This document shows positions 1-41,038 of a stretch of 42,402 nucleotides of DNA, one piece after another. The position numbers and the translations under genes are program-made. This DNA comes from a virus: IMG/VR virus record IMGVR_UViG_3300025127_000078, positions 1-42,402 of that record; one strand, given 5' to 3'. The notes below the pieces were generated by a model, which was not told the DNA's origin, did no database searches, and saw only the letters and a list, made by a program, of their open reading frames with translations. How positions within the stretch are numbered: the stretch's first letter is position 1; each line of letters opens with the position of its first letter.

Positions 1-2
1 GT

Positions 3-377
3 TTAGCAAAAATAGCTTTGCAGGCTGGAAGTAAGATATATTCTAATCGTCAAAAGACGAAAATGGCTATGTCTGACGCTCAACTCATGCATGCTGAAAA
101 AATGGCCCGTGGAGAGGAGCAATACCAAGGAAAATTGCTGGAAGCTAGACAAAACGACTATAAGGACGAATTTGTACTCGTTATAATTTCGGCGCCCATC
201 ATAGTTTTAATGTGGGCAGTCATGTCAGATGACCCTGCAGCGATGGAAAAGGTTAAATTATTCTTTGAATACTTTCAATCCCTTCCGTCCTGGTTCACCA
301 ATTTATGGATACTTGTAGTTGCGTCAATTTTTGGTATAAAGGGTACACAAGTTTTTAGAAACGGAGGAAAAAAATAA
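3..377 (+). CDS. Holin-like membrane protein, 5'-truncated by the window
   Basis: The reading frame is open to the window edge, so the N-terminus is missing; the first visible possible starts are internal. Two hydrophobic segments are seen, one beginning FVLVIISAPIIV and one around LWILVVASIFGI, separated by a short amphipathic stretch. The segment DEF before the first TM and the overall layout resemble the C-terminal part of the three-TM holin family known from gene transfer agents and marine phages (GTA_holin_3TM type). The expected role is to permeabilise the inner membrane so that the endolysin at 38.3 kb can act, although the two genes are far apart here. The stop codon overlaps the next start. 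Family assignment is by recalled pattern, not by search. Confidence 0.6.
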   Translation, partial: LAKIALQAGSKIYSNRQKTKMAMSDAQLMHAEKMARGEEQYQGKLLEARQNDYKDEFVLVIISAPIIVLMWAVMSDDPAAMEKVKLFFEYFQSLPSWFTNLWILVVASIFGIKGTQVFRNGGKK

Positions 378-2677: not shown

Positions 2678-3059
2678 AAAACTGGTAGGAGTCAAAAAAG
2701 AAAAAGATCTAACAAAAGAAGATTCAACTAAACTACCACAGCCAACTGGTTGGAGGATGTTAGTTTTACCTTTCAAAATGAAAGAGAAAACTAAGGGCGG
2801 GTTAATACTTGCCGAAGCAGCCTTAGAGAGACAACAAGTTGCGTCGCAATGTGGTTTAGTTTTAAGAATGGGTCCAGATTGTTACAAGGACAAAGAGCGT
2901 TACGCCGAAGGTCCTTGGTGCAAGGAAGGGGAATGGGTAATGTTTGCCCGTTATGCTGGATCAAGAATAAAGATAGAAGGTGGAGAAATACGTCTGCTAA
3001 ACGATGACGAAGTTTTAGCAACCATCAAGAATCCAGAGGATATCTTGCATGAATATTAA
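2640..3059 (+). CDS. Phage GroES-like co-chaperonin (Cpn10 fold)
   Basis: A 139-residue protein. After a basic N-terminal extension of about 35 residues it matches the Cpn10 layout: a first strand (GWRMLVLPFKMKEKT), the mobile-loop region (KGGLILAEAALERQQ, the place of the GroEL-binding loop), a GxVLxxGP strand, a short insertion, then EGEWVMFARYAG and a terminal IRLLNDDEVLATI strand. In T4 the equivalent protein (gp31) replaces host GroES so that host GroEL can fold the capsid protein. A strong AAGGAG (2630-2635) precedes the ATG. Its place immediately before scaffold and capsid genes supports the same role here. Confidence 0.88.
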   Translation: MEQSSKSIKLPNKKLVGVKKEKDLTKEDSTKLPQPTGWRMLVLPFKMKEKTKGGLILAEAALERQQVASQCGLVLRMGPDCYKDKERYAEGPWCKEGEWVMFARYAGSRIKIEGGEIRLLNDDEVLATIKNPEDILHEY

Positions 3060-3076
3060 CATCATAGGAGGAAACT

Positions 3077-4033
3077 ATGCCAACTAAAGAAGAAAAAATG
3101 GTTGATCTAGATACATCCGGCGAAGGTGCTGAGATTAATCTAGAGGAACAAAAAGACGAGTCGGTTGTTGAAACCGAAGCGCCTAAAGAAGAAGCAGAAG
3201 CCCCTAAAGAAGAACCAATAGAAACGAAACAGGAAGAAGAAACACCTAAAGAAGAACCAAAAAAAGAAGACGAACAACTTGAAGATTACAGTAAAGGTGT
3301 TCAGGCAAGGATTGCAAAACTTACACGTAAAATGCGTGAAGCTGAAAGGCAAAGAGATGCAGCCACTGAATATGCAAAATCAGTTGAACAAAAAAGACAA
3401 GCTTTGGAAACAAGGTTTGAAAAAACTGACGCTGATTATATTAAGAAGTTCGAAACAAGTATCAACACTGGTTTAGAAGCGGCACAAAAAGAATTAGCTG
3501 CAGCTATTGAAGCAGGTGATGCTAAAGCACAAGTAGAAGCCAATAAGAGAATTGCTACACTTGCTTTTGAAAACGCTAAGTTATCACAAAGTAAAGAAGC
3601 AAGGGAGACAGCGGTGTCTAAACCTTCAGAAGTGAAAGCTCCTGAACAGCCTAGAACACAAGCTGAACCTAGTGATCCTATGGCTGAAGCATGGGCGTCA
3701 AAAAATACATGGTTTGGTAAAGATAGAGCCATGACATACACAGCGTTCGAAATTCATAAGGATTTAGTTGAAAAAGAAGGTTACGACTCAAATTCAGATG
3801 AATATTATGCAGAAATCGATAAAAGAATCCGTGTTGACTTTCCGCATAAATTTGCTAAAAGAGATGTTAGAAACACGACCGACCCCGTTCAGACGGTGGC
3901 TTCAGCGAAGAGAAGCGTAAGACCTGGTCGCAAAACTGTGAAACTCACATCATCACAGGTAGCAATCGCTAAAAAATTAGGTGTGCCACTCGAAGAGTAC
4001 GCAAAACAAATAAAAAACACGGGAGGAGCGTAA
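3077..4033 (+). CDS. Acidic scaffold-like capsid assembly protein
   Basis: A 318-residue protein with a very acidic, repetitive N-terminal part (many EAPKEE and PKEEPK units to about residue 70). A long helical/coiled-coil middle follows (EAERQRDAATEYAKSVEQKR and after), then a more basic C-terminus ending near KKLGVPLEEYAKQIKN. Acidic coiled-coil proteins directly upstream of the major capsid gene are characteristic scaffolds, and the basic C-terminal helix would be the capsid-binding end by analogy with P22 and T7 scaffolds. No protease domain is visible. An AGGAGG at 3066-3071 fixes the ATG. The assignment is from composition and position. Confidence 0.7.
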   Translation: MPTKEEKMVDLDTSGEGAEINLEEQKDESVVETEAPKEEAEAPKEEPIETKQEEETPKEEPKKEDEQLEDYSKGVQARIAKLTRKMREAERQRDAATEYAKSVEQKRQALETRFEKTDADYIKKFETSINTGLEAAQKELAAAIEAGDAKAQVEANKRIATLAFENAKLSQSKEARETAVSKPSEVKAPEQPRTQAEPSDPMAEAWASKNTWFGKDRAMTYTAFEIHKDLVEKEGYDSNSDEYYAEIDKRIRVDFPHKFAKRDVRNTTDPVQTVASAKRSVRPGRKTVKLTSSQVAIAKKLGVPLEEYAKQIKNTGGA

Positions 4034-5162: not shown

Positions 5163-6065
5163 ATGGCAATATCAAGAAGTCAACTAGTTAAAGAACTAGA
5201 GCCAGGATTGAATGCACTATTCGGCCTGGAATACAAAAGGTATGAAAATCAGCATGCTGAGATTTATACTGCAGAAAACAGTGACAGAGCTTTTGAAGAA
5301 GAAGTAATGTTATCTGGTTTCGCAAACGCGCAAGTAAAAGCAGAAGGTAGCGGAGTCTCTTTTGACGAAGCACAAGAAACTTTTACAGCGAGATACACTC
5401 ACGAGACCGTAGCTCTAGCGTTCGCTATCACAGAAGAAGCTATCGAAGATAATCTCTACGATAGACTAGCTTCTAGATACACGAAAGCTTTAGCAAGATC
5501 TATGAGTAACGCTAAACAAGTAAAAGCAGTTGAACCTTTAATCAACGGTTTTGGAACTTTCAAAACTGGAGATGGAGTTGCTTTATTTAGTGGTTCTCAC
5601 CCGACAGTAGCAGGAACGTTTTCAAACACGTTAGCTACAGCGGCGGATCTTAACGAAACTTCATTAGAACAGTCGATGATTGACATCGCGGCTATGACTG
5701 ATGAAAGAGGTCTAAGAGTTGCAGCAAGAGGAGTAAAAATGGTTATTCCTTCTGAGCTTCAGTTTACAGCTGAGAGATTGATGAAATCTCAAGGTAGAAC
5801 TGGAACAGCTGACAACGATATCAACGCAATCGTATCTATGGGTATGGTTCCTCAAGGTTATAGAGTGAACAACTACCTAACAGACACAGATGCGTTCTAT
5901 ATCTTGACAGACGTGCCAAATGGCATGAAAATGTTCAATAGAGCACCATTAACGACTGCAATGGAAGGTGATTTCGACACTGGCAACGTAAGATACAAAG
6001 CTAGAGAAAGATATTCTTTTGGAGTATCAGACCCTAGAGGTATTTTCGCGTCACCAGGTGCGTAA
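5163..6065 (+). CDS. Major capsid protein, Mu gpT-like
   Basis: A 300-residue protein. The central ITEEAIEDNLYDRLASRYTK region, the VALFSGSHP motif around residues 137-146 and the later SELQFTAERLMKSQ and TDTDAFYILTDVPNGMKMF segments match, from memory, the Mu gpT-like group of HK97-fold major capsid proteins. The length is close to that family. The ribosome site is GGAGATAAATT upstream of the ATG. The gene is followed by a strong terminator at 6079-6108, as expected for a highly expressed capsid gene. The start is short and uncleaved-looking, with the separate scaffold gene upstream; no fused delta domain is seen. Confidence 0.85.
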   Translation: MAISRSQLVKELEPGLNALFGLEYKRYENQHAEIYTAENSDRAFEEEVMLSGFANAQVKAEGSGVSFDEAQETFTARYTHETVALAFAITEEAIEDNLYDRLASRYTKALARSMSNAKQVKAVEPLINGFGTFKTGDGVALFSGSHPTVAGTFSNTLATAADLNETSLEQSMIDIAAMTDERGLRVAARGVKMVIPSELQFTAERLMKSQGRTGTADNDINAIVSMGMVPQGYRVNNYLTDTDAFYILTDVPNGMKMFNRAPLTTAMEGDFDTGNVRYKARERYSFGVSDPRGIFASPGA

Positions 6066-36680: not shown

Positions 36681-36753
36681 AAAAATTTGGGATAAAATTA
36701 AAAGTCTATGGGACAAGTATGTTAAATGGATTTTTAAAGGTTTTTATAAGTAA
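36673..36753 (+). CDS. 26-residue cationic amphipathic peptide
   Basis: ATG 36673 follows AGGAG (36661-36665) with seven-base spacing, inside the end of the previous gene, and the TAA at 36751-36753 overlaps the next ATG. The product starts MIKKIWDKIKSLWDKYVKW and ends IFKGFYK: eight lysines, two aspartates, and a regular 3-4 spacing of Ile/Trp/Leu/Val/Phe that makes one hydrophobic helix face. This is the pattern of membrane-active cationic peptides. The ribosome site and double coupling argue for translation. A role in lysis or membrane disturbance is inference. Confidence 0.6.
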   Translation: MIKKIWDKIKSLWDKYVKWIFKGFYK

Positions 36754-37079
36754 TGGCAAAGAAACAACTTAAAAGTAAATTATCCAGATTTGAATGGGTA
36801 AAAAAGAATATTGTAATTGTTCCTGTTGTAGCAGCTATATTAGCAGGAACATTTACATCTGTAAGATATGTTCTTAATCTTACGGATACAATAGAAGCAA
36901 ACAAATCAACTCTTGTAAATATTGAAAGAGATTTAAAAGTAGCAGAAGATAAACTAACCGAAATTGCTACAAGATTATCTGCAGCAGAAGCAACGTGGGA
37001 TATGGCAGAAAATTTATATAGACAACTAGCAGACCAGGTAAGGGAACATGCATACGATATCAAAGATCTTAACAGGTAA
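36753..37079 (+). CDS. Single-TM coiled-coil protein, possible i-spanin/holin partner
   Basis: A 108-residue protein with a basic N-terminus (KKQLKSKLSRFEWVKKN), one TM segment (IVIVPVVAAILAGTFTSVRY) and then a long coiled coil (NIERDLKVAEDKLTEIATRL and after). The N-in topology with a periplasmic coiled coil is that of inner-membrane spanins (Rz-like). The gene lies in the envelope/lysis cluster 1.3 kb before the endolysin and overlaps the secreted-protein gene after it by 32 bases. A candidate outer-membrane lipoprotein partner is encoded at 40584, but no adjacent Rz1 is present. Confidence 0.5.
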   Translation: MAKKQLKSKLSRFEWVKKNIVIVPVVAAILAGTFTSVRYVLNLTDTIEANKSTLVNIERDLKVAEDKLTEIATRLSAAEATWDMAENLYRQLADQVREHAYDIKDLNR

Positions 37080-37593
37080 TCTATTCTGGATTATTTTTTT
37101 TCTGATTGTAGCAACATCAGTACAAGCACGTAACGAGTATTTACAAAACGGAACAAACACATGTAGTCGAGGTAGTTTTGACGTTTCTATTGAACAAAGA
37201 GACGATCAATATAATTACAATCATAATAGTCCTAGTAATAATTATGAAGGCACTGATGATGATAGAAGTGTAAGATTTACTTATAGAAAATATTTAGGAT
37301 CAGCATGTACAGAGGAGTTTATTGCTGAACAAGAAAAACAAATGAAGATTAAAACACAACTAGAAGTTATTAAAGAGTGTAAAAGAGTACCTAGAATAAG
37401 CCCTCCACCACCGGAGTTTGCAGAGCTAATCAATATGTGTATGAAAGTTGGTGTGATGTCATCATCTCAATTTGCTGGCGACAGAGATTTTGATCCTAAA
37501 ATTAGCTATTGGACAGAGCTAAAACAACAGTATTTAAAAGATAACCCAGATGTGGTAACACTAGACAATTATAAGGAAAAGAATGGCAAATAA
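37048..37593 (+). CDS. Secreted/periplasmic protein with signal peptide
   Basis: A 181-residue protein with a signal peptide (LFWIIFFLIVATSVQA, cleavage expected after VQA, near residue 27), followed by a mature part with cysteines (NTCSRGSF; SACTEEF; ECKRVPR; INMCMKVG) that could form disulphides. FAELINMCMKVGVMSSSQF and a Trp/Tyr-rich segment near the end are notable. There is no lipobox. It starts inside the previous gene and its stop overlaps the next start. I recall such conserved secreted proteins in pelagiphage lysis regions; function unknown. A hydrolase motif is not visible. Confidence 0.6.
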   Translation: MHTISKILTGNLFWIIFFLIVATSVQARNEYLQNGTNTCSRGSFDVSIEQRDDQYNYNHNSPSNNYEGTDDDRSVRFTYRKYLGSACTEEFIAEQEKQMKIKTQLEVIKECKRVPRISPPPPEFAELINMCMKVGVMSSSQFAGDRDFDPKISYWTELKQQYLKDNPDVVTLDNYKEKNGK

Positions 37594-37987
37594 ACCAATG
37601 AAAATTAGCGAAGAAGCAGCTGTGCAAATGCCGATGAAGACGGTTGCCAGTTTGATCGCGATGGTCGCTATCGGAACCTGGGCTTATTTTGGCCTGCACG
37701 AAACGCTCAACAACCACGCCACAAAAATAGAATTAATGCAGAAAGATTTAGAACAAAACACAGAGTTTAGAATTAAATACCCAAGAGGTGAGTTAGGTCA
37801 ATCAGCTGGAGAGGCAGAACTTTTTATGATTGTAGAACATGTTAGTGGTTTATTAGAGGACGTAGAAGCAGAACTTAAAAGTATGAGAAACAATGCAGTT
37901 AACATAGAATTTTTAAAGAAAAGAACTGAGAAGTTGACTGAAGATGTAGAAAAAATAATTAGAAACGGAAATGGACCGAAACACTAG
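37583..37987 (+). CDS. Single-TM protein of envelope cluster
   Basis: A 134-residue protein with a predicted TM segment (VASLIAMVAIGTWAYFGLHE) near the N-terminus and a long charged region (KIELMQKDLEQNTEFRIKYP then RGELGQSAGEAELFMIVEHV, EKLTEDVEKI). The segment [FY]P+GELG is one I have met in similar TM proteins of marine phages, annotated as holin- or spanin-like without proof. The first 110 bases are distinctly G+C richer than the rest. It lies immediately before a small basic gene and the endolysin. Confidence 0.55.
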   Translation: MANKPMKISEEAAVQMPMKTVASLIAMVAIGTWAYFGLHETLNNHATKIELMQKDLEQNTEFRIKYPRGELGQSAGEAELFMIVEHVSGLLEDVEAELKSMRNNAVNIEFLKKRTEKLTEDVEKIIRNGNGPKH

Positions 37988-38135
37988 AAAAATTTTAAAT
38001 TATATCTCTGATATGGAGAAGCAAGCAAAACAAATGAGCTATGTAAAAGACCTTAAAAAAGAGGTAGAAATTAATGGCACGGGTACACATAGGTACAGAA
38101 TTAAAAAAGGACCAAATAAAGGCAGAGTTTTATGA
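37971..38135 (+). CDS. 54-residue basic small protein
   Basis: ATG 37971 lies inside the previous gene, preceded by AACGGAA, and the frame ends TGA 38133-38135, overlapping the next ATG (ATGA). The product is MDRNTRKILNYISDMEKQAK then QMSYVKDLKKEVEINGTGTH and RYRIKKGPNKGRVL: a short helix followed by a basic tail. Without it there would be a 144-base gap between two coupled genes. Function unknown. Confidence 0.55.
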   Translation: MDRNTRKILNYISDMEKQAKQMSYVKDLKKEVEINGTGTHRYRIKKGPNKGRVL

Positions 38136-38341
38136 TAGAAACTGTATTTGCACTTATCCTAACTTTAAACGGAAATATGATAGAGCATACATATAAAAGC
38201 TCGTTAAGCGATTGTTTAAAATCCAAACGCCTGGCTCAGAACGAGGTAAACCCAGAAAGAGTAGTATTTACTTGCAAAAAAGTAAAGGCTAAAACAGAAA
38301 TATACATGGATCGTAAGAAAATTTTAAGTATAATAAAATAA
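38132..38341 (+). CDS. Small two-cysteine protein, secreted-type
   Basis: A 69-residue product beginning with a hydrophobic strand (MIETVFALILTLNGNMIEH), then S-x-x-D-Cys28 and a later FTC (Cys48), and a Lys-rich end. I recall a family of MIETVFAL....LNG...... S..DCL....... V.YTC-type small proteins in marine phages, unassigned. The same outline (N-terminal strand, S..x C, then a late [FY]xC) appears in two other small genes here (39292 and the - strand 39593). The two cysteines could pair in the periplasm. It directly precedes the endolysin with an overlapping stop/start. Confidence 0.6.
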   Translation: MIETVFALILTLNGNMIEHTYKSSLSDCLKSKRLAQNEVNPERVVFTCKKVKAKTEIYMDRKKILSIIK

Positions 38342-38826
38342 TGAGACTAAGTAAACATTTTACATTAGAAGAAATGACTAAGTCTATGACGGCTGCTCGT
38401 AAAGGTATAGACAATACACCGGGGTCAGGTGAGATACATAATCTTACTGAAGTTTGTTATAATATATTAGAACCACTTCGTGCTAAATTTGATAAGCCAG
38501 TTACAATCACATCAGGCTATCGATCCGAAGCGCTTTGCGAAGCGATCGGCAGCAAAAAAACATCGCAACATGCAAAAGGCCAGGCGGTCGACCTAGAAAT
38601 TATGTCTGTTCCTAATATTAAATTAGCTTATTGGATAGAAGCTAACTGTGATTTTGACCAGCTCATACTTGAATACTACAAACCAAACGATGGCCAAGCA
38701 GGATGGGTTCACGTATCTTACAATGAGAAAGGCGCTAACAGAAAACAAGTTTTAACTTTTGACGGTAAAAAATATGACAACGGACTTCCTGAAATGAAAT
38801 GGAAAGACGGACAAGTCGTAGAATAA
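38341..38826 (+). CDS. Endolysin: M15-family peptidase (VanY/L,D-type carboxypeptidase)
   Basis: A 161-residue protein with the M15 active site. SGYRSEALCEAIGSKKTSQH then AKGQAVDLEIM gives His77 and Asp84 as zinc ligands, Glu111 (LILEYY) as the general base candidate and His124 (GWVHVSYN) as the third zinc ligand. The order SGYR...SQH..G.A.D....... W.H matches the peptidase M15_3 group used by many phages as endolysin, cutting peptide cross-links in peptidoglycan. No signal peptide is present, so it needs a holin (a candidate is at the window start). It sits in a cluster of membrane and secreted proteins. Confidence 0.9.
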   Translation: MRLSKHFTLEEMTKSMTAARKGIDNTPGSGEIHNLTEVCYNILEPLRAKFDKPVTITSGYRSEALCEAIGSKKTSQHAKGQAVDLEIMSVPNIKLAYWIEANCDFDQLILEYYKPNDGQAGWVHVSYNEKGANRKQVLTFDGKKYDNGLPEMKWKDGQVVE

Positions 38827-38835
38827 TTATAAACT

Positions 38836-39060
38836 ATGACTAAAATAGGAACACTCACTTCACAAATTGTAACTGGTAATTGTCCAGAGTGTAGAACAGA
38901 TACACTTCTTGTATCTTTCGAACCACACCTTTATCGATGTGTTAATTGTGGTTTTGATCTAGAACAAAAAGTAAATGGTGTGATTAAATATGTTATAGCC
39001 AACGAAGAAACTAAGTTTAAAGCTAGTATTTTACCGGACGAAGAAGATAAACATGGCTAA
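38836..39060 (+). CDS. Small zinc-ribbon protein
   Basis: A 74-residue product with Cys16-x2-Cys19 (GNCPECR) and Cys35-x2-Cys38 (YRCVNCGF), a clear four-cysteine zinc ribbon of the kind found in many small nucleic-acid- and transcription-associated proteins. The C-terminus is acidic (PDEEDKHG). It overlaps the next small basic gene by eight bases. A regulatory or structural role is likely but cannot be told from the sequence. The start is ATG 38836; no strong ribosome site is visible. Confidence 0.65.
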   Translation: MTKIGTLTSQIVTGNCPECRTDTLLVSFEPHLYRCVNCGFDLEQKVNGVIKYVIANEETKFKASILPDEEDKHG

Positions 39061-39187
39061 AAAGAAACCGCTTTTTGGCGTTAACACATACATAAAACGA
39101 ACTCCCAAAAAAAGACCTGGTAGACACTCAAAGCACCACTCTAAACGCGTGCCCAGGCGTAAGAAATATCGCGGCCAAGGCCGTTAG
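39053..39187 (+). CDS. 44-residue Arg/Lys/His-rich protein
   Basis: ATG 39053 lies inside the end of the zinc-ribbon gene and the frame ends TAG 39185-39187. The product begins MAKKKPLFGVNTYIKRTPKK and continues RPGRHSKHHSKRVPRRKKYR then GQGR. Tiny proteins of this type (KRPG.H.K...... KKYRGQGR) occur, as I remember, in many pelagi- and cyanophages, with no function assigned. The extreme basicity suggests nucleic-acid binding. Confidence 0.65.
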   Translation: MAKKKPLFGVNTYIKRTPKKRPGRHSKHHSKRVPRRKKYRGQGR

Positions 39188-39202
39188 TTTAGAATCATTC
39201 TA

Positions 39203-39295
39203 ATGTGGAATATAATTATATTCTTTTGGTGGATTGCATTTTTATTATGTATTCTGGTATATAGTGCTTTTATATTTGGAAGCTTTATCATATGA
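39203..39295 (+). CDS. 30-residue single-TM peptide
   Basis: ATG 39203 to TGA 39293-39295, overlapping the next ATG (ATGA). The product begins MWNIIIFFWWIAFLLCILVY then SAFIFGSFII: almost one continuous hydrophobic helix with no charged residue. Stop/start coupling to the following gene and its place in the membrane-protein cluster support it, but there is no good ribosome site, and short hydrophobic frames do arise by chance in AT-rich DNA. If real, it resembles tiny lysis or membrane-disturbing peptides. Confidence 0.45.
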   Translation: MWNIIIFFWWIAFLLCILVYSAFIFGSFII

Positions 39296-40088: not shown

Positions 40089-40488
40089 ACTACCGTTTGC
40101 GAACAGTGATGTTATTCGATTAAACGAATACAATAAAACTCCGCAACAAAAACTTTGGATCTCAGTTCTAGCTAAGGCTTTTGATGATGCATTTTATTCA
40201 GCAGATGAAAGATCAGCATTAGAAGCTTTACGTTGGATCAAACACGGTAAAGATTTTAACATGGTATGTAGAATGGCGGGAAGAGAAGGCACATACGTCA
40301 AAGAAAAAATGTTAAACAAAGTTATCGAAAGAGAAGCAAACTTATTAGGAAAGCATGCAAGCATTAGAAATGCCACGAACAATATTTTAATTCTTAAAAA
40401 CGAGGCTGAGAAAAGAAAAGTAAGAAGACAAAAAGAAAAGGAGTATACTAATTTACCAAAGTACAGTCATGATTATGTCGACAGGTAG
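40075..40488 (+). CDS. Conserved helical phage protein
   Basis: A 137-residue protein: QQKLWISVLAKAFDDAFYSA then DERSALEALRWIKHGKDFNM, VCRMAGREGTYVKEKMLNKV and IEREANLLGKHASI. The combination KLWISV.AKAFDDAF....... AL.WI..G.DF..VC..AG recurs, as I recall, in many marine phages without assigned function; GREGTYVKEKMLNKV could be a helix-turn-helix. The C-terminus is Lys-rich. It overlaps the previous gene by 14 bases and the zinc-finger gene by 20. Confidence 0.65.
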   Translation: MAKHRLPFANSDVIRLNEYNKTPQQKLWISVLAKAFDDAFYSADERSALEALRWIKHGKDFNMVCRMAGREGTYVKEKMLNKVIEREANLLGKHASIRNATNNILILKNEAEKRKVRRQKEKEYTNLPKYSHDYVDR

Positions 40489-40654
40489 AAGAATATGTCC
40501 TGAGTGTAAAGGTAATGGGTATTTAAAAACAAGTATAGGTAAAATAGTACAATGTTTAAACTGTTGGTCGGAAGGAGAGATAGATGAAAAGATTTGGGCT
40601 AGGGATTTTGATCCTATTATTCCTGATGAGTTGCAGTCAATCAAAGAAGATTGA
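40469..40654 (+). CDS. Small DnaJ-type zinc-finger protein
   Basis: A 61-residue protein with Cys10-x2-Cys13-x-Gly-x-Gly (RRICPECKGNGYL) and Cys29-x2-Cys32 (VQCLNCWSEGE), the arrangement of a DnaJ-type zinc ribbon. Such mini-zinc proteins are common in phages, with no J domain. It starts inside the previous gene. A lipoprotein gene begins inside it in another frame at 40584, so its C-terminal 23 codons are under double coding pressure. Confidence 0.6.
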   Translation: MIMSTGRRICPECKGNGYLKTSIGKIVQCLNCWSEGEIDEKIWARDFDPIIPDELQSIKED

Positions 40655-40715
40655 TAAGATTACATGGGACCCTATAAAAGCAATGGTTAGGATAACATTT
40701 GGACAAGTTAAATGA
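40584..40715 (+). CDS. 43-residue lipoprotein overlapping zinc-finger gene
   Basis: ATG 40584 lies out of frame inside the previous gene, behind AAGGAG (40572-40577) with six-base spacing, and its TGA (40713-40715) overlaps the next ATG. The product begins MKRFGLGILILLFLMSCSQS and continues KKIDKITWDPIKAMVRITFG: a basic n-region, a hydrophobic core and the lipobox LMSC with Cys17 as the lipidation site, then a mature part of about 27 residues. This is the form of an Rz1-like outer-membrane spanin or an exclusion lipoprotein of the Llp/Cor type. Ribosome site, lipobox and coupling together make it convincing. Confidence 0.72.
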   Translation: MKRFGLGILILLFLMSCSQSKKIDKITWDPIKAMVRITFGQVK

Positions 40716-41038
40716 CAGTTGAGTATTTAGCAGGATTGTTTGATGCTGACGGATGTGCATCGAGTTATTTACAAAGAAACAAAAAGTCTAACAAGACTGT
40801 GCAAGTACACAGCTGTGAGATATCAATGACAAACAAAGAAGTTATATATTGGGTTAAAAATTTTTTAGGTTTTGGTAACATACACTACAGAGCAAAAGTA
40901 GGTGGTATGGGTAAGAAACCACAGTGGCGATACCGAGCTTCACATAGATTAGCGTTGAAGTTTGCAAACAAAGTTTTGCCATATAGTATTGTTAAGAAAA
41001 AGAAATTACAGGATATTGTAAAACACTATGGCAATTAA
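40712..41038 (+). CDS. LAGLIDADG homing endonuclease, single motif
   Basis: A 108-residue protein beginning MTVEYLAGLFDADGCASSYL, with the LAGLIDADG-type motif at residues 6-14. KVGGMGKKPQWRYRASHRLA is the later strand segment of the fold, as seen in group I intron and free-standing enzymes. With one motif it would act as a homodimer. It is free-standing here, with no intron or intein recognised next to it. It overlaps the lipoprotein gene by four bases and the next gene by 11. Confidence 0.8.
   Translation: MTVEYLAGLFDADGCASSYLQRNKKSNKTVQVHSCEISMTNKEVIYWVKNFLGFGNIHYRAKVGGMGKKPQWRYRASHRLALKFANKVLPYSIVKKKKLQDIVKHYGN

Follow-up and report, generated by a model that had tools for sequence, protein, structure and literature searches.

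A predicted short lipoprotein gene overlapping the 3' end of a zinc-knuckle gene in a probable pelagiphage, and the recurrence of this layout in uncultured marine phages

The precursors of bacteriocin release (colicin lysis) proteins and entericidins measure about 40-50 aa and give rise to lipidated peptides of some 22-33 residues, whose site of action is the envelope. Lipoprotein genes that overlap another gene are known in phages from the spanins; in the locus reported here the outer gene encodes a zinc knuckle. In the spanin survey of Kongari et al., a periplasmic Cys was present in 505 of the 526 tabulated pairs, with 21 exceptions, the greatest separation reported for the genes of a pair was about 1 kb, and the reported combined periplasmic length ranged from 62 to 300 (PMC6139136). 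The mature part of the phage T5 lipoprotein Llp comprises about 61 residues, and its target is FhuA, on the periplasmic side (PMC9586334).

The window, i.e. the whole stretch of DNA analysed here, comes from a virus record of 42,402 bases. Its capsid protein is 85% identical to that of Pelagibacter phage HTVC027P and 75% identical to those of HTVC023P and 023Pt_psg01, so that the window probably represents a pelagiphage of the HTVC023P type, with SAR11 bacteria as hosts. The features of the locus and of the region upstream are as follows.

36753-37079, plus strand: transmembrane (TM) and coiled-coil protein, the first spanin partner candidate of the original prediction; partnership unsupported
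37583-37987, plus strand: TM and coiled-coil protein, phrog_20984, the second partner candidate; partnership unsupported
38341-38826, plus strand: M15 peptidase endolysin (PF08291 3.4e-20, phrog_894 1.2e-46), 1.8 kb upstream of the lipoprotein ORF
40469-40654, plus strand: zinc-knuckle ORF of 61 aa, CPECKGNG...CLNCWSEGEI, DnaJ/anti-TRAP-like, the outer frame
40568-40582, plus strand: zinc-knuckle codons TCG GAA GGA GAG ATA (S34-E-G-E-I38), which contain the lipoprotein Shine-Dalgarno (SD) sequence
40572-40577, plus strand: SD sequence AAGGAG, 6 nt ahead of the lipoprotein ATG and kept in relatives
40584-40715, plus strand: lipoprotein ORF of 43 aa in the +1 frame relative to the zinc ORF, with ATG at 40584 and stop TGA at 40713-40715
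40584-40631, plus strand: signal peptide, residues 1-16, entirely within the overlap with the zinc ORF
40632-40712, plus strand: mature lipopeptide of 27 aa, first residue Cys17 (TGC 40632-40634), predicted to be lipidated, Ser at +2
40712-41038, plus strand: LAGLIDADG homing endonuclease ORF (PF00961 1.3e-07, phrog_5046 2e-19)

The lipoprotein ORF is translated as MKRFGLGILILLFLMSC followed by SQSKKIDKITWDPIKAMVRITFGQVK, with lipobox LMSC and Cys17. MKRFGLGILILLFLMSC has the make-up of a bacterial-type lipoprotein signal (Lgt/Lsp substrate), i.e. a positive n-region, a hydrophobic core and a lipobox Cys within about the first 15-25 residues. The zinc-knuckle ORF matches Pfam PF15777 and PF00684, both below the family cut-offs. 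The original prediction of a 43-residue out-of-frame lipoprotein with this lipobox and Cys17 held in the sequence and in relatives, as did AAGGAG six bases before the ATG at 40584. Its placement inside a zinc-finger gene was right as to the other frame but wrong as to full nesting: 71 of the 132 nt overlap the 3' end of the zinc-knuckle ORF, and because the remaining 61 nt extend past the zinc-gene stop, the lipoprotein ORF is overlapping and not fully embedded. The coupling to the endonuclease gene is real in the window genome, where the lipoprotein stop and the LAGLIDADG start overlap in ATGA at 40712; the downstream gene varies among relatives, some of which have a LAGLIDADG endonuclease there and some a different small gene. 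The site 3' of the lipoprotein looks like an insertion hot spot. Whatever its kind, the gene after the lipoprotein usually begins within the end of the lipoprotein ORF, both in the window (40712-41038) and in relatives.

Under a strict rule, 40584-40715 was the sole lipoprotein ORF in the 42.4 kb window; a relaxed rule added two more, on the minus strand and without SD, and left 40584-40715 as the sole plausible one. Random windows of matched first-order composition held about 0.9 lipobox ORFs each, and none of 20 such windows held one with SD. Judged on its own, 40584-40715 is only moderately unusual as an ORF; the evidence from the single genome being moderate, conservation therefore decides whether the lipoprotein gene is real. 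In viral contigs, about 42 close relatives of the zinc ORF were found. All of those covering the region keep the lipoprotein start, SD and lipobox, with lengths of 40-44 aa, and FGL, L11, L14, S16 and C17 are invariant across the signal peptides; the lipobox pattern is kept in all distinct relatives. Conservation of Cys17 and the lipobox was thus found in every relative covering the region, and the objection from a lost lipobox, foreseen in the original prediction, falls. A scan with the lipoprotein itself yielded 41 loci, in which the zinc ORF stood at the same place in the loci compared, two being cut by a contig end. Zinc-frame diversity at the three codon positions, given as descriptive values because the 34 distinct sequences are related, was 0.092/0.083/0.367 before the overlap and 0.166/0.124/0.150 within it, a drop at the third position from 0.367 to 0.150. 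The lipoprotein-only tail gave 0.415/0.276/0.561, and its length changed in whole codons only. Both frames are under constraint in the overlap, and the lipoprotein-only tail is coding; by the diversity of its non-overlapping 5' part, the zinc-knuckle ORF evidently codes as well. As judged from these comparisons, the lipoprotein gene is clearly real and conserved.

The zinc-knuckle form surveyed more widely was CxxCxGNG...CxxC..[SQ/SE]GE, and a scan at DNA level for zinc knuckles with an S[E/Q]GE end and GGAGARAT, with nothing required downstream, gave at least 120 matches and thereby many further contigs. Across all loci compared, these matches among them, there were 140 distinct phage zinc-knuckle ORFs; a lipoprotein ORF was present in +1 in 79 of them and in +2 in none. 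The fraction is no estimate for zinc knuckles in general because the pattern presupposes GGAGARAT, an SD-like codon run. Synonymous recoding of the same 140 proteins led to an expectation of 1.83 in +1 and 0 in +2. The 140 include the window's close relatives, which account for 30 of the 79 carriers; 58 of the 94 distinct ORFs first met through the zinc-pattern scan had the lipoprotein (among the matches listed). Lipoproteins accompanied 78 of 116 GEI knuckles and 1 of 22 GEL knuckles, and GGAG or AGGA lay at most 16 nt upstream in 78 of the 79 overlapping lipoprotein genes (both across all loci compared); thus the S[E/Q]GEI codons of the zinc knuckle itself provide the ribosome-binding site of the lipoprotein. 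The commonest lipoboxes in these 79 lipoproteins were LTSC, LMSC and LVSC, and the +2 residue was Ser or Thr in 70 of them. The overlap layout is common to at least dozens of uncultured marine phages.

Named phages gave no match to blastn of the region or to tblastn of lipoproteins of both types, the latter limited by the short queries, and tblastn of the window's zinc ORF against them found a single weak place, in 023Pt_psg01. Neither the window lipoprotein nor two close relatives had a significant match in Pfam or PHROGs. A wider overlapping-gene layout of this kind in marine phages has apparently not been described before: the codons of a zinc-knuckle motif double as a start signal, recurrently in uncultured marine phages and in none of the named phages searched. 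Genes that overlap in this way probably escape standard gene callers, and annotation may therefore be missing for a class of envelope proteins encoded by phages that abound in the ocean. The layout also offers a clear case for study of the origin of overlapping genes and of domain exchange in them.

Two types of mature lipoprotein share the start site and the position of the signal peptide and differ in mature sequence. The short type has 22-30 residues, is cationic and carries the motif DPxT/NPxT; the window's mature part, WDPIKAMVRITFGQVK, is a divergent member, a placement that rests on locus L171 (WDPKTGLVRITFGQVK), which shows the membership. Across all loci compared, the 79 mature parts carry a net charge of +1.8 on average. 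The helical hydrophobic moment of short mature parts lies above shuffles (mean z 1.74 vs 0.50 for strand periodicity, 63 related sequences). The longer type comprises about 50-67 residues; around YNGxD..T.K.IK.H, its Y, D, T, K and H do not vary. AlphaFold models of both types were of low confidence. A scan with the longer type gave 171 loci, of which 79 were examined (77 viral, 2 genome contigs); a +1-frame overlap with a zinc knuckle was seen in 57 of these, and no zinc knuckle in the other 22. The genome scan with the longer family returned two matches, both in metagenome-assembled genomes and probably phage DNA. Free-standing longer-type lipoproteins of 138-139 aa with a polar, possibly coiled-coil tail occur in loci L289, L290, L319-L323 and L327. 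In L289, L319 and L323, the three of these loci with listed genes, the free-standing relative has a long polar tail, and an M15 endolysin follows about 0.55 kb downstream of it; the three loci are closely related and are counted as one case. Another small lipoprotein with Cys is found in different phages, in L117 at 3010-3171 and in L323 at 5479-5670 (CSYKVQFGKACTPNNSEWSYVWL.. and CSIKEPRLSFGKKCAVKEDKVVYSYIWL..).

The two partner candidates of the original prediction differ in distribution. Many of the lipoprotein-bearing loci covering the position of the 36753 product gave no sign of it, and the 37583 product was found in the lipoprotein loci covering its region. Homologues of the latter occur in 43 phage records, 38 of them of Pelagibacter phages. 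No plausible lipoprotein in any frame was found in HTVC027P, HTVC023P, 023Pt_psg01, HTVC041P, HTVC121P, HTVC106P, HTVC010P and Jormungand, of which HTVC023P and HTVC010P were included for their genome relatedness, no homologue of 37583 having been shown in them; HTVC026P has one lipoprotein, of 93 aa and unrelated to that of the window. Over 24 loci, pairwise distances of 37583 correlated with those of 38132 at r = 0.88 and with those of the mature lipoprotein at r = 0.26; adjacency alone may explain the former value. The 38132 product has 69 aa, an N-terminal hydrophobic stretch and two Cys. It stands side by side with 37583 in several pelagiphages (window 37583-38341). The products of 37583 and 38132 could form a pair that acts in lysis or at the envelope with no lipoprotein involved. 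At window positions 1-377 lies a possible holin, a TM protein (phrog_2524 match, 5.9e-31) that resembles an HTVC121P protein at 38850-39203.

That the +1 frame of the zinc-gene tail merely resembles a lipoprotein by chance is very improbable. After synonymous recoding this frame stays open across the overlap 27% of the time, and lipobox ORFs without SD are not rare in a random window, but a chance ORF sits poorly with 79 carriers in 140 where 1.83 were expected, with 0 in +2 and with an SD in 78 of the 79 across all loci compared, or with the low third-position diversity of the zinc frame in the overlap and the coding signature of the tail. The lipoprotein could instead be the o-spanin of a two-component spanin, paired with 37583, its gene overlapping a non-spanin gene. 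It is the sole plausible lipoprotein in the window, its lipobox and +2 Ser give the outer-membrane signal expected of an o-spanin, and 37583 has a spanin-like layout, a weak Rz-like match (phrog_739, E 0.011) and a presence in the lipoprotein loci covering its region; together the two would have a periplasmic length of about 120 residues, within the range of 62-300 (PMC6139136). What makes this pairing unlikely is the lack of the usual periplasmic Cys, there being none in 36753 or 37583 and none besides C17 in the lipoprotein, where 505 of 526 pairs have at least one, and the separation of 2.6 kb, where the reported pairs lie at most about 1 kb apart (PMC6139136). Homologues of 37583 also occur in phages without any plausible lipoprotein, and the r of 0.26, against 0.88 for 37583 and 38132, shows no co-variation. 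Both partners were therefore rejected: 36753, whose gene ends 3.5 kb upstream, is missing from many lipoprotein-bearing loci, and 37583, 2.6 kb upstream, is present in pelagiphages without the lipoprotein and tracks 38132 in its distances. The proposed pairing with these TM coiled-coil products is thus not supported, and neither is the o-spanin role, with no periplasmic Cys and no close linkage.

A superinfection-exclusion or receptor-blocking lipoprotein, by analogy with T5 Llp or Cor, would bind an outer-membrane protein from the periplasm and shut out later phages. This reading is doubtful, though better placed than the o-spanin. The presence of the lipoprotein is patchy and accessory, exchangeable mature domains follow a conserved start site, the gene sits among small genes with a variable downstream neighbour, and Llp sets the example of a small phage lipoprotein acting on FhuA from the periplasmic face; on the other side, the mature parts have 22-30 residues against about 61 in Llp (PMC9586334), the window's peptide is without a second Cys, no receptor-binding gene adjoins, and no Pfam or PHROGs family matches. 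The preferred account, held with somewhat less than even confidence, is a real overlapping pair in which a short lipoprotein begun in the +1 frame of the zinc-gene 3' end acts most likely as a lysis helper. Ribosomes would start at the SD that the SEGEI codons of the zinc knuckle form, cleavage at Cys17 would remove the signal peptide, and the lipidated 27-residue peptide, with Ser at +2, would reach the outer membrane on its periplasmic face; lipidation and location are predicted from the lipobox and the +2 residue. There the short, cationic, probably amphipathic lipopeptide might be an accessory factor in lysis that perturbs this membrane in the manner of a bacteriocin release or entericidin lipopeptide, and not half of a spanin. 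Among the ideas on function this lysis helper is the leading guess, a tentative one, because of the helical moment and the endolysin 1.8 kb upstream; exclusion comes next and the o-spanin last. The mature charge of +1.8 and the distance of about 0.55 kb from an M15 endolysin in L289, L319 and L323 are further points for it, and the longer family, which is without the short cationic form, is a point against. Membrane activity is a guess from composition and from a structure model of low confidence (mean pLDDT 68). No plausible lipoprotein was seen in HTVC027P, HTVC023P and 023Pt_psg01, the nearest isolates, so that lysis in general does not require one, and its absence from close isolates marks it as accessory. 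A broader proposal, rather unlikely as a whole, is a recurrent module of uncultured marine phages in which the S[E/Q]GEI end of the knuckle serves both as protein motif and as ribosome-binding site of a +1-frame outer-membrane lipoprotein into which unrelated mature domains are exchanged; zinc protein and lipoprotein may then function together as a single unit, with the lipopeptides as a new class of phage effectors that act on the envelope.

Among known systems, pelagiphages of the HTVC023P/HTVC027P type resemble the window in their capsids (75-85% identical), and HTVC027P also in gene order, from DNA polymerase through endolysin to a small-gene region. The cultured HTVC027P and HTVC023P, and 023Pt_psg01, differ in being without the window's lipoprotein; the zinc knuckle is present in 023Pt_psg01 and absent at the corresponding place in HTVC027P. 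The accessible part of the HTVC027P transcriptome paper gave no placement for the timing of the matching genes, and lipoproteins, spanins and zinc proteins go unmentioned in the main text of a paper on 80 genomes of the HTVC023P type. With the lambda Rz/Rz1 spanins of the overlapped and embedded types the locus shares a small outer-membrane lipoprotein out of frame in another gene, often overlooked by gene callers; it differs in that the outer gene is a zinc knuckle and not an i-spanin, periplasmic Cys is lacking, and the candidate partners lie 2.6-3.5 kb off and do not co-vary. T5 Llp and Cor are likewise small phage-encoded lipoproteins of accessory distribution, whereas the window's mature part is under half the length, has no sequence match and is not adjacent to a receptor-binding gene. 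Homology to bacteriocin release or entericidin lipopeptides was not seen in Pfam, where the lipoprotein has no match. Those peptides are chromosome- or plasmid-encoded with no overlapping phage gene, and in size both their precursors and their lipidated peptides are similar to those of the window.
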